Source of the DNA: Paraburkholderia sp. BL23I1N1
GTDB taxonomy: Bacteria > Pseudomonadota > Gammaproteobacteria > Burkholderiales > Burkholderiaceae
Length of the DNA stretch: 64,000 nucleotides
Reading direction: 5' to 3'
NCBI RefSeq assembly: GCF_003610295.1
Contig: NZ_RAPV01000002.1
Location: 1,054,001 to 1,118,000, forward strand
Under the pieces are notes generated by a model. That model was not told where the DNA came from. It did not search any database and saw only the letters and a program-made list of their open reading frames with translations. The position numbers were made by a program, and so were the translations under genes. This document shows, one piece after another, positions 3,527-6,622 of the stretch. Positions within the stretch are counted from its first letter, which is position 1, and every line of letters starts with the position of its first letter.

Positions 3527-3601
3527 GTCCCATTCGACCCGGCAACGAGTTGTTACGGTACAGAGGCGGCGCGTGAAGCACCATTCGTCCGTTCGGCTAA
3601 T

Positions 3602-3633
3602 AAAAAAAACCCGGCTCGTCGAGCCGGGTTTTT
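3602..3633 (-). terminator. Rho-independent terminator of aroG
   Basis: The stem CCCGGCTCG/CGAGCCGGG is flanked by A8 on the left and T5 on the right of the plus strand, so it can work in both directions. It lies 45 bp past the aroG stop codon and separates aroG from the toxin-antitoxin locus. Confidence 0.85.
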
Positions 3634-3677
3634 CGATGAAGCTGCTATAGCAATCGCGCACGTGCGCGAAGCGGAAT

Positions 3678-4751
3678 TTAATTGCCGCTGCCGCGCGTCA
3701 CACGCCGTTGCTTGACTGCTTCAGCGAGACCCTCCAGCACGGCGACACTTTCGTCCCAGCCGATGCAGGCATCGGTGATGCTCTGGCCGTACGTCAGCGC
3801 GCAGCCTTCCTGCAGATCCTGGCGGCCCGCGATCAGGTGCGATTCCACCATCACGCCGACAATCCGTTCGTCGCCCGAAGCAATCTGGCGGCCGATGTCC
3901 GCGCACACCGGAATCTGGTTCTCGTGCTTCTTCGAGCTGTTCGCGTGGCTCGCGTCGATCATCAGACGCGCCGCGAGACCTGCCTTGCCGATGTCGGCAC
4001 ACGCCGCATTGACGCTGTCGGCATCGTAGTTCGGCGTCTTGCCGCCGCGCAGGATGATGTGGCAGTCCTCATTGCCGGCGGTCGAGACGATCGCCGAGTG
4101 GCCGCCCTTTGTGACGGACAGGAAATGGTGCGGTTGCGATGCGGCCTTGATCGCGTCGACGGCGATCTTGACGTTGCCGTCCGTGCCGTTCTTGAAGCCG
4201 ACCGGGCACGACAGTCCCGACGCCAGTTCGCGATGCACTTGCGATTCGGTCGTGCGCGCGCCGATTGCACCCCACGAGATCAGATCGGCGATGTACTGCG
4301 GGCTGATCATGTCGAGGTATTCGGTCCCGGCCGGCAGCCCGAGTTCGTTGATACGCAGCAGCAACTCGCGCGCGGTGCGCAGGCCGTCGTTGATCTTGAA
4401 GCTGTTGTCCATGTGCGGGTCGTTGATGAGACCCTTCCAGCCCACCGTCGTACGCGGCTTTTCGAAGTACACCCGCATCACGATTTCGAGCTCGCCGGCG
4501 AAGCGCTTGCGCTGTCCGACGAGACGCCCGGCGTATTCCATCGCCGCCTTCGTATCGTGAATCGAGCACGGTCCGATGATGACGATCAGACGGTCTTCCA
4601 TGCCGTGCAGGATGCGATGCATTGCGTTGCGCGAGTTGTAGATCACGTCCGACACCGTTTCGTCGCACGCGAATTCGCGGATCAGGTGAGCGGGCGGCGT
4701 GAGTTCTTTCAATTCGCGGATACGGACATCGTCGGTGTTGTGCGGGGGCAT
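3678..4751 (-). CDS. aroG: 3-deoxy-7-phosphoheptulonate (DAHP) synthase, class I
   Basis: A 357-residue class I (AroFGH type) DAHP synthase. It condenses phosphoenolpyruvate and erythrose-4-phosphate, the first step of the shikimate pathway. Signature segments include IIGPCSIHD, MRVYFEKPRTTVGWKGLINDP, VGFKNGTDGN and IMIDASHANSSKKHENQ, which carry the substrate and metal ligands. The start at 4751 has AGGAG seven bases upstream and matches the family length; a longer frame to 4817 lacks this. The gene sits behind a 300-nt leader with what looks like a complete aromatic amino acid attenuator, so it is probably controlled by charged tRNA supply. Confidence 0.95.
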   Translation of the reverse strand: MPPHNTDDVRIRELKELTPPAHLIREFACDETVSDVIYNSRNAMHRILHGMEDRLIVIIGPCSIHDTKAAMEYAGRLVGQRKRFAGELEIVMRVYFEKPRTTVGWKGLINDPHMDNSFKINDGLRTARELLLRINELGLPAGTEYLDMISPQYIADLISWGAIGARTTESQVHRELASGLSCPVGFKNGTDGNVKIAVDAIKAASQPHHFLSVTKGGHSAIVSTAGNEDCHIILRGGKTPNYDADSVNAACADIGKAGLAARLMIDASHANSSKKHENQIPVCADIGRQIASGDERIVGVMVESHLIAGRQDLQEGCALTYGQSITDACIGWDESVAVLEGLAEAVKQRRVTRGSGN

Positions 4752-4888
4752 GCTTGTTCTCCTGAATCGGGTCGTAGCGTGTTCGCGCGGGCAACGAAGG
4801 CTGCGATCGGACAGCAATCAGGCAGCGATGCCAGGGCGGACAACAATCAAAAAGATTTCAACGGCAAAAGGTTCAAAGGCGTGAGGCG

Positions 4889-4916
4889 AAAAAAAAACCG
4901 CCAGGCTAGCTGGCGG
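4889..4916 (-). terminator. Attenuator terminator in the aroG leader
   Basis: Read on the minus strand, CCGCCAG, a five-base loop, CTGGCGG and nine U form a textbook intrinsic terminator. It lies 30 bp after the leader peptide stop and about 140 bp before the aroG start. Its 5' arm can instead pair with the identical CTGGCGG at 4970-4964 inside the leader peptide gene, forming an antiterminator. It lies too far from tldD, and within the aroG transcript, to be only a tldD terminator, though it could serve both. Confidence 0.8.
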
Positions 4917-4946
4917 TTTTCGTGAATTCTGGGTGTCTTGCGTGCA

Positions 4947-5015
4947 CTAACACCCCTCTCGATCCGCCAGCGGTCTGAGATGCCAAAAAAAGTAAAAGTA
5001 AAACTTGGCGGACAT
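4947..5015 (-). CDS. Aromatic-rich leader peptide of aroG (attenuation)
   Basis: A 22-codon ORF, ATG to TAG, with start MSAK, then codons 5-11 encoding Phe-Tyr-Phe-Tyr-Phe-Phe-Trp, and ending ADREGC. Seven consecutive aromatic codons covering all three end products of the pathway are hard to explain by chance. Segment 1 (CCGCC at codons 2-4) can pair with segment 2 (CTGGCGG at codons 16-18). Segment 2 can also pair with segment 3 (CCGCCAG, 4916-4910), and segment 3 with segment 4 of the terminator. Stalling at aromatic codons should free segment 2 and block termination. The ribosome site upstream is weak, which is the main reservation. Confidence 0.75.
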   Translation of the reverse strand: MSAKFYFYFFWHLRPLADREGC

Positions 5016-5051
5016 GGCGAAATAGGTCGCTGGTCAAAAAGGGTGAGTGAC

Positions 5052-5080
5052 TTTATAACCCGTGCAAGCTCGGCTGACAA
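5052..5080 (-). promoter_or_regulatory. Sigma-70 promoter of the aroG leader
   Basis: On the minus strand TTGTCA (5080-5075), a 17-bp spacer and TATAAA (5057-5052) make a near-consensus housekeeping promoter. The predicted start near 5045 would give a leader peptide 5' UTR of about 30 nt. Confidence 0.7.
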
Positions 5081-5155: not shown

Positions 5156-6622
5156 TCAGGCCGTGCCGCCCACCGTCATCCGGTCGATGCGCAGCGTCGG
5201 CTGACCGACGCCCACCGGCACGCTCTGGCCTTCCTTGCCACATACGCCAACGCCCGAATCGAGCTTCATGTCGTTGCCGATCATGCTGACGTACTTGAGC
5301 GATTCCGGGCCGCTGCCGACCAGCGTCGCGCCCTTGACCGGGTAGGTGATCTTGCCGTTTTCGATCATGTACGCCTCGGAGGCCGAGAACACGAACTTGC
5401 CGTTCGTGATGTCGACCTGGCCGCCACCGAAGTTCACCGCGTACAAGCCGCTCTTCACGGACGCGATGATTTCTTGCGGGTCTTTGTCGCCGTTGAGCAT
5501 GTACGTGTTGGTCATACGCGGCATCGGCAGGGCGGCGTACGATTCGCGGCGCGCGTTACCCGTGACCGGCATTTTCATCAGGCGCGCGTTCAGCGTGTCC
5601 TGGATGTAACCCTTCAGAATACCGTCTTCGATCAGCGTCGTGCACTGGGTCGGATTGCCTTCGTCGTCGATATTCAACGAGCCGCGGCGATTCGGCAGCG
5701 TGCCGTCGTCGACCACCGTCACGCCCTTCGCCGCAACCCGCTCGCCGATTTGACCCGCGAACGCCGACGATCCCTTGCGGTTGAAGTCGCCTTCGAGGCC
5801 GTGGCCGATCGCTTCGTGCAGCAGCACGCCGGGCCAGCCCGGTCCAAGTACCACAGACATCGCGCCGGCCGGAGCCGGACGGGCGTCGAGGTTCACCAGC
5901 GCCGCATGCACAGCGTCGTCGACATAGCTCGACAGTACTTCGTCAGTGAAATAGCCATAGTCGAAGCGGCCACCGCCGCCGCCGCTGCCGATTTCGCGGC
6001 GGCCATTCTGCTCGGCGATCACCGTGACCGACACGCGCACGAGCGGCCGGATATCGGCCGCAAAGCCGCCGTCGCTGCGCGCGACCAGCACCACGTCGTA
6101 TTCACCGGCGAGGCCCGCCATGACTTGCTGGATGCGCGGATCGCGGCCGCGCGCGATCTGTTCGATGCGCTCGAGCAGCTTGACCTTGGCGGTCGCGTCG
6201 AGCGAGTGCAGCGGATCGGCAGGCAGGTACAGATCGCGCCCGGCAATGCCGGTCAGCGACGTGGCCACCTTGATCTTCTGCTTGCCGCCGCCCGCCTTGG
6301 CAATCGAACGGGTGGCGAGCGCCGCCTGACGGATCGCTTCGGGCGACAGGTCGTCCGAATAGGCGAAGGCCGTGCGGTCGCCTGACACGGCGCGCACGCC
6401 GACACCCTGGTCGATACTGAAGCTGCCCGACTTCACGATGCCTTCCTCGAGACTCCACGCTTCGCTGCGCGTGTACTGGAAGTACAGGTCGGCGTAGTCG
6501 ATCTTGTGCGTGAAGATTTCGGCGAGCGTGCGGGTGAGCAGGGATTCGTCGAGACCGTAGGGCGTCAGGAGGATGTCCTTGGCGGTGGCGAGATTACGGA
6601 TACCGGGTTCGATGATGTTCAT
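5156..6622 (-). CDS. tldD: Metalloprotease TldD
   Basis: A 488-residue PmbA/TldD-family protein. The zinc motif [11 protein letters not shown] (HExxxH) is in the middle, followed by [18 protein letters not shown]. The C-terminal beta-rich half ends in the family's usual [19 protein letters not shown]. TldD works with TldE/PmbA, which is not in this window, as a cytoplasmic protease that degrades unfolded peptides and processes microcins and CcdA in other bacteria. It ends about 75 bp before the aroG leader promoter on the same strand. The next gene upstream, the amidase, starts a separate unit about 96 bp away. Confidence 0.95.

Follow-up and report, generated by a model that had tools for sequence, protein, structure and literature searches.

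All aromatic amino acids draw on carbon committed by DAHP synthase, whose transcriptional regulation is understood chiefly from E. coli with its regulators TyrR and TrpR. Leaders holding codons of several amino acids together are known from the ilv and thr operons, i.e., branched-chain or Thr/Ile codons and not aromatic ones. The Phe leader attenuators (pheA, pheST; RF01859) share with the element described here a Phe leader peptide (some with Tyr), a terminator and an antiterminator. However, their target gene is another one, and the aroG leaders show prominent Tyr and often Trp codons. The trpL/rnTrpL leader of Sinorhizobium meliloti is likewise a ribosome-mediated attenuator, and its leader mRNA is leaderless in the excerpts of PMC7298713 and PMC10117765. 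It senses Trp and controls trpE, whereas the leader of the present locus is not leaderless by promoter position.

Attenuation has also been proposed for DAHP synthase genes, and these proposals come closest among the published ones. A Phe-coding upstream ORF, uORFC-13-1, was described as attenuating the DAHP synthase gene aroF of Acholeplasma (PMC8632094, in part). It belongs to other organisms, comes with a ribosome site and one or more Phe codons, and is likened to our leader by its description in that excerpt only. For E. coli aroF, an attenuator was hypothesised and listed as sensing Tyr-tRNA (excerpt of PMC2659441). Putative attenuators before DAHP synthase-tyrA operons, e.g., in Vibrio, are given in Merino's database. 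The published table likewise predicts attenuation where a DAHP synthase gene opens the operon and, in the excerpt, is limited to operons with tyrA (PMC1173090). No aroG attenuator of the groups treated here was found in the literature searched, and earlier notice is possible in Vitreschak 2004, Merino and Yanofsky 2005, and Merino's database.

The window, i.e., the whole stretch of 64,000 nucleotides analysed from Paraburkholderia sp. BL23I1N1, carries an aroG gene on the minus strand, and the features upstream of it are listed in Table 1. Among the solved structures closest to this AroG is the Phe-regulated DAHP synthase of E. coli, and its best-ranked named relative among the matches listed was that of Paraburkholderia domus, which is 99% identical and has an identical leader peptide. 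The first-pass annotation had placed a promoter, a 22-codon ORF with aromatic codons at positions 5-11, pairing segments and a terminator with nine U in front of the gene, and all of these were borne out by the sequence. Its aroG start at 4752 was off by one, since the ATG lies at 4751-4749. The promoter was unlisted in a consensus scan of the window, which demands the final T that TATAAA lacks, and the hairpin was likewise unlisted. The leader RNA (4889-5046) folded better than 200 of 200 shuffled sequences (z -3.48), and in the full-length fold the terminator was formed, with the 5' UTR bound to the region of segment 2.

Table 1. Elements of the aroG locus in the window (all on the minus strand)
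Feature	Position	Strand	Description and basis
Promoter TTGTCA-17-TATAAA	5052..5080	-	TTGTCA 5080-5075, 17-nt spacer, TATAAA 5057-5052; predicted from sequence
Stretch from -10 box to leader ATG	5016..5051	-	no Shine-Dalgarno-like site; partly complementary to segment 2 region
5' UTR of leader	within 5016..5051	-	about 30 nt, given a start about 7 nt past the -10 box
Leader ORF, 22 codons	4947..5015	-	MSAKFYFYFFWHLRPLADREGC; ATG 5015-5013, TAG 4949-4947
Aromatic codons 5-11	4983..5003	-	Phe-Tyr-Phe-Tyr-Phe-Phe-Trp; sequence
Segment 1	5006..5012	-	TCCGCCA; pairs with segment 2, weak
Segment 2	4963..4971	-	GCTGGCGGA; sequence and relatives
Segment 3 (terminator 5' arm)	4909..4920	-	AAAACCGCCAGC; sequence and pairing in relatives
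Segment 4 (terminator 3' arm)	4894..4904	-	CTGGCGGTTTT; sequence and pairing in relatives
U-run	4889..4897	-	nine U, expected transcript end; sequence
aroG	3678..4751	-	type I-alpha DAHP synthase, 357 aa; NCBIfam NF006723 AroG, 594 bits (cut-off 568)

The leader element is single-copy in this genome, i.e., no second copy was found below E 0.1. A second DAHP synthase gene (G000:C1:4989535-4990575), 58% identical in the AroG search, had neither an aromatic leader nor a terminator upstream. In Rfam, no match was found for the window leader region or for seven further aroG leader loci, and the RF01859 Phe_leader covariance model likewise matched none of them. The Rfam hits rnk_pseudo, NsiR1 and anti-hemB at 3599-3713 were below the gathering score (E 0.13-0.45), lie on the downstream terminator of aroG and were discarded as chance.

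Conservation was studied in 80 aroG loci, among the matches listed, out of 587 relatives. The aromatic leader ORF was kept in 79/80 and the terminator 3' arm with its T-run in 80/80, an outcome that the first-pass annotation had named as supportive. The motif CCGCTGGCGGA of segment 2 was identical in 76/80 (exceptions L042, L065, L080 and L081). In two loci that retain aroG the element is damaged. A frame shift in L053 runs the leader ORF through the terminator, and in L065 the peptide is shortened to MLAKFYFIF and the terminator is imperfect. These are entered as Candidatus symbionts, i.e., Candidatus Burkholderia humilis and Candidatus Vallotia cooleyia.

The six codons FYFYFF were compared with their consensus in 46 leaders, counted without requiring the amino acids, as restriction to peptides starting MSAKFYFYFF would be circular and exclude amino acid changes. 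Of the 66 differences, 55 were synonymous and 11 were nonsynonymous, and 58 fell on third positions. FYFYFF was read in 39 of the leaders. This synonymous excess argues for leader translation, and the leader ORF appears to be under selection as a translated sequence.

For the codon, duplex and Shine-Dalgarno (SD) tests, 125 of 163 loci were kept by the rule that aroG, ORF and terminator arm be present, which left out the real-looking leaders L020, L044, L052, L097, L099, L105, L108, L110 and L122. The set sizes vary with the deduplication key (near: 71, 67, 53, 51 or 47; far, in the same order: 44 or 43), and the ORF of L065 is misplaced in the near sets.

Pairing between the segments was followed by alignment and by a comparison of duplexes. 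In 75 close leaders, 99.6% of the cells of the 3:4 terminator were paired, and two pairs had double changes, in 13 cells. None of 500 shuffles reached the cell count and 68/500 reached the pair count. The 2:3 antiterminator was paired in 97.7% of cells with no double change among these leaders, and 1:2 in 91.6%, where a single cell held the one double change. In a more varied set of 59 leaders, double changes were seen at 11 of the 18 pairs modelled (1:2 and 3:4), a number reached by 0/500 shuffles, in an alignment fitted to the model, which favours this result. An alignment of 77 matches from 59 sources (A2), containing reverse-strand and junk rows, was replaced by a third one (A3) with a stricter cut-off.

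The duplex test is alignment-free. Own partners were compared with swapped partners in 2000 permutations, with the nearest ATG as start, in 53 near leaders, 43 far leaders and the 96 of both sets together (all). The leaders are related, so the permutation counts are not probabilities. The own 3:4 pairing beat 2000/2000 permutations in all three sets. The own 2:3 pairing beat all 2000 in the far and all sets, and 55/2000 reached its mean in the near set. For 1:2, the own mean was reached by 367/2000 (near), 893/2000 (far) and 2/2000 (all), i.e., duplex coevolution was not significant within near or within far leaders. The terminator and antiterminator pairings thus coevolve, as judged from these sequence comparisons, and the 1:2 arm is the weak part of the attenuator. 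Of the three pairings proposed in the first-pass annotation, 3:4 and 2:3 are upheld by coevolution and 1:2 is weak. The compensatory stem changes it anticipated in relatives were seen in the terminator. Its view that antiterminator and terminator exclude each other is favoured by the 2:3 coevolution in the far and combined sets, the close set having no double change.

For a duplex between the 5' UTR and the segment 2 region, the own pairing was reached by 0/2000 permutations in near, 1205/2000 in far and 0/2000 in all leaders. The Paraburkholderia UTR motif CACCCUUUUU and the Burkholderia motif CAACUUUUUU match GAGAGGGGUG and GAGAGGGUUG past segment 2, and in the window the partners are 5016-5051 and about 4953-4971. 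This match is possibly a compensatory extension of the 1:2 arm.

These features suggest that the aroG leader is a ribosome-mediated transcription attenuator, with a probability of about 0.9. An ORF of aromatic codons stands before a biosynthetic gene, followed by an intrinsic 3:4 terminator and an excluding 2:3 pairing. The relatives support this earlier reading, as aromatic codons, U-run and terminator are kept and 3:4 shows compensatory changes. The parts, their conservation, the codon constraint and the coevolution of 3:4 and 2:3 are present in the sequences themselves, to which we add, by inference, ribosome stalling, termination and the dominant amino acid. The polymerase would first transcribe the tiny aromatic leader ORF. 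If tRNA-Phe or tRNA-Tyr in charged form is scarce (or tRNA-Trp, in leaders that have its codon), the ribosome would pause on the aromatic codons and free segment 2. The 2:3 pairing would then form in place of the terminator, and transcription would run into aroG. If aromatics are plentiful, the ribosome would reach the stop codon and cover segment 2, so that the 3:4 terminator forms and the transcript ends near 4889.

The proposed states were modelled by folding the RNA through segment 3 with a ribosome masking the stretch from 18 nt before the A-site codon to 12 nt after it. Results were obtained for 94 leaders (51 near, 43 far), and 2 of 96 gave none. With the ribosome on at least one aromatic codon, the 2:3 probability exceeded 0.5 in 94/94 leaders. 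In L002, whose UTR and peptide equal those of the window, it was about 1.0 with the ribosome on any of the seven aromatic codons and 0.08 with it at the stop. The picture was less uniform at the other positions. The probability was still above 0.5 with the ribosome at the stop in 22/51 near and 13/43 far leaders, and with the ribosome on the last aromatic codon in 18/51 near and 36/43 far leaders. The distance from the last aromatic codon to the GGCGG core of segment 2 had a median of 14 nt in near leaders (range 11-166, with a misplaced ORF at the extreme) and of 11 nt in far leaders (range 7-17). Without a ribosome, the 2:3 probability exceeded 0.5 in 28/51 near and 19/43 far leaders, L002 included. 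The modelled equilibrium folding of the untranslated RNA would therefore often favour the antiterminator, which is against the simple attenuator picture.

A weak ribosome site of the leader peptide had been named as a soft spot, and this is true but general and not a defect of this copy. An SD-like site was found upstream of the leader ORF in 0/71 near and 4/44 far leaders, and upstream of aroG in 70/71 near and 25/44 far loci, the true aroG start of the far loci not being fixed. This survey took the most upstream ATG, which is wrong for some loci, and its UTR z-scores (mean -0.78) were set aside. A -10-like hexamer (>2 bits) was found 6-11 nt before the leader start in 30/44 far leaders (at other distances 6-13/44) and in 24/38 leaders of other orders (at other distances 1-11). 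Because this site adjoins the leader start, the leader mRNAs of many distant lineages look leaderless by their sequence, a state also described for trpL of Sinorhizobium meliloti. In Burkholderia s.l., it lay 6-11 nt before the leader ATG in 2/67 and 36-41 nt before it in 44/67, and the window leader, with the 5' UTR of about 30 nt of its lineage, is not leaderless by promoter position.

A covariance model of the leader (R1, E<=0.01) gave 73 matches, spread over 67 of the 300 genomes covered in the order Burkholderiales. The 30 best of the 73 were all upstream of aroG. Of the remaining 43, another 25 preceded aroG and one (L136) preceded a type I-beta DAHP synthase gene, while 16 showed no aroG and one had a DAHP synthase gene on the opposite strand. 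The reverse approach started from the gene in 90 genomes of the order, of which 65 had 84 AroG matches. A leader was flagged, i.e., an ORF with at least five aromatics in nine residues plus a terminator, before 19/56 AroG genes of at least 60% identity and before 0/28 matches of less than 60%. The control on the reverse complement, in which no terminator was required, found such an ORF in 2/56. By eye, the flagged L188 was spurious and the unflagged L198 real. These counts mean that the leader is common yet far from universal, and it was seen on AroG-like genes only and not on more distant paralogues. In L099 and L105, the attenuated aroG is followed directly by a second AroG-like frame, and in one genome (G022) the second AroG copy had no leader of its own.

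Outside the order, a second model (R2, E<=0.001) matched 7/274 genomes of the class and 20/200 of the phylum, samples that overlap and include the own order. Among 19 loci examined, 15 were before aroG (two in the own order), one was a pheS leader (L265) matching RF01859 at 84.3 bits, and three were neither. In the orders of two of these hits, 14/150 and 22/101 genomes matched, and 25 of 27 new loci were before aroG. The aromatic runs differ in sequence between lineages yet stay aromatic. The element is thus not confined to Betaproteobacteria but also stands before aroG in other orders of the phylum.

The most serious competing view is that the leader senses Phe alone, or Phe together with Tyr, and that the Trp codon is incidental in the lineage of the window, which we regard as somewhat doubtful though well worth keeping in mind. 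Among distinct near leaders, the core peptide has Phe in 47/47, Tyr in 47/47 and Trp in 33/47 (33/46 without the misplaced L065), and far leaders of the same order have 43/43, 39/43 and 18/43. Trp is therefore missing from 14/47 near and 25/43 far leaders, a count that includes the misplaced L065, while Phe is present in 90/90 and Tyr in 86/90. Trp codons also lie near segment 2, and the modelled 2:3 probability of a ribosome stalled on them is lower (mean 0.62) than for Phe (0.86) or Tyr (0.87). On the other side, all three aromatics occur in 38/38 leaders of other orders, and in L002 stalling at Trp would give about 1.0. The earlier proposal of one leader sensing Phe, Tyr and Trp fits the other orders, where every one of the 38 leaders has all three codons, and is weaker near the window, where Trp is not conserved.

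It is also conceivable, but improbable, that the terminated leader RNA or peptide acts in trans in addition, as with rnTrpL/peTrpL of Sinorhizobium meliloti (excerpts of PMC7298713 and PMC10117765). This analogy is what speaks for it, and the loss of the peptide tail upon frame shift speaks against it. In L012, L015 and L036, the frame changes just past the aromatic run with the RNA segments intact (sequencing error is possible), which suggests, as far as the sequences go, that the leader tail is conserved as RNA and not as protein.

A further view holds that the leader binds a protein or a metabolite as RNA and that the aromatic ORF is incidental. The untranslated RNA is able to adopt either structure, and no ribosome site precedes the ORF. 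Against these points stand the constraint on the aromatic codons, the frame-shifted tails of L012, L015 and L036 with the aromatic run kept, the runs that vary in sequence between lineages with the aromatics kept, and the lack of any Rfam match. We consider this view very unlikely. Finally, the hairpin might merely terminate the upstream tldD-like gene, whose ORF on the same strand has its stop near 5156, the aromatic ORF being due to chance. This is hardly credible, because a promoter lies between that gene and the hairpin, the antiterminator coevolves, and an aromatic ORF was near only 1 of the 17 R1 matches without a same-strand DAHP synthase gene downstream.

Around L136, a search for type I-beta DAHP synthase genes in 60 genomes from a single family of the order gave 27 hits in 26 of them. 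An ORF with at least four aromatics in nine residues was found at 24 of the 25 loci having 300 nt upstream. The exception is L319, a distant paralogue with no aromatic ORF upstream, and L317 and L318 were left out for want of upstream sequence. Of the 24, 21 reached five in nine, 20 had a terminator and 18 had both, and the five-in-nine ORF was found on the reverse complement in 0/24. In L293 and L296-L300 (within L293-L316), the leader ATG is preceded by TATACT at a distance of about 6-8 nt. We infer that the type I-beta aromatic leaders are of separate origin, since the enzyme family and the terminator sequence are different.

Taken together, the aroG attenuator as seen in sequence is real and conserved, with an unusual mix of sensed amino acids and a wide spread, and a widespread version on aroG seems undescribed although the mechanism is classical. 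TyrR and TrpR are conserved in many gammaproteobacterial groups and missing from other classes (PMC5343134, in part), and no TrpR match was found in the genome of the window. There may be an even chance that one element, in several orders of at least two classes, pools the charging of tRNA-Phe, tRNA-Tyr and tRNA-Trp at the shikimate entry in place of TrpR/TyrR-type repression, arose separately on type I-beta genes and is leaderless in most distant lineages.

The apparently leaderless leader ORFs are material for studying how a ribosome keeps pace with the polymerase without an SD site. As a natural sensor, the aroG leader would report on two or three amino acids, and the conserved attenuator gives a testable answer to how the entry of the pathway is tuned in these bacteria.
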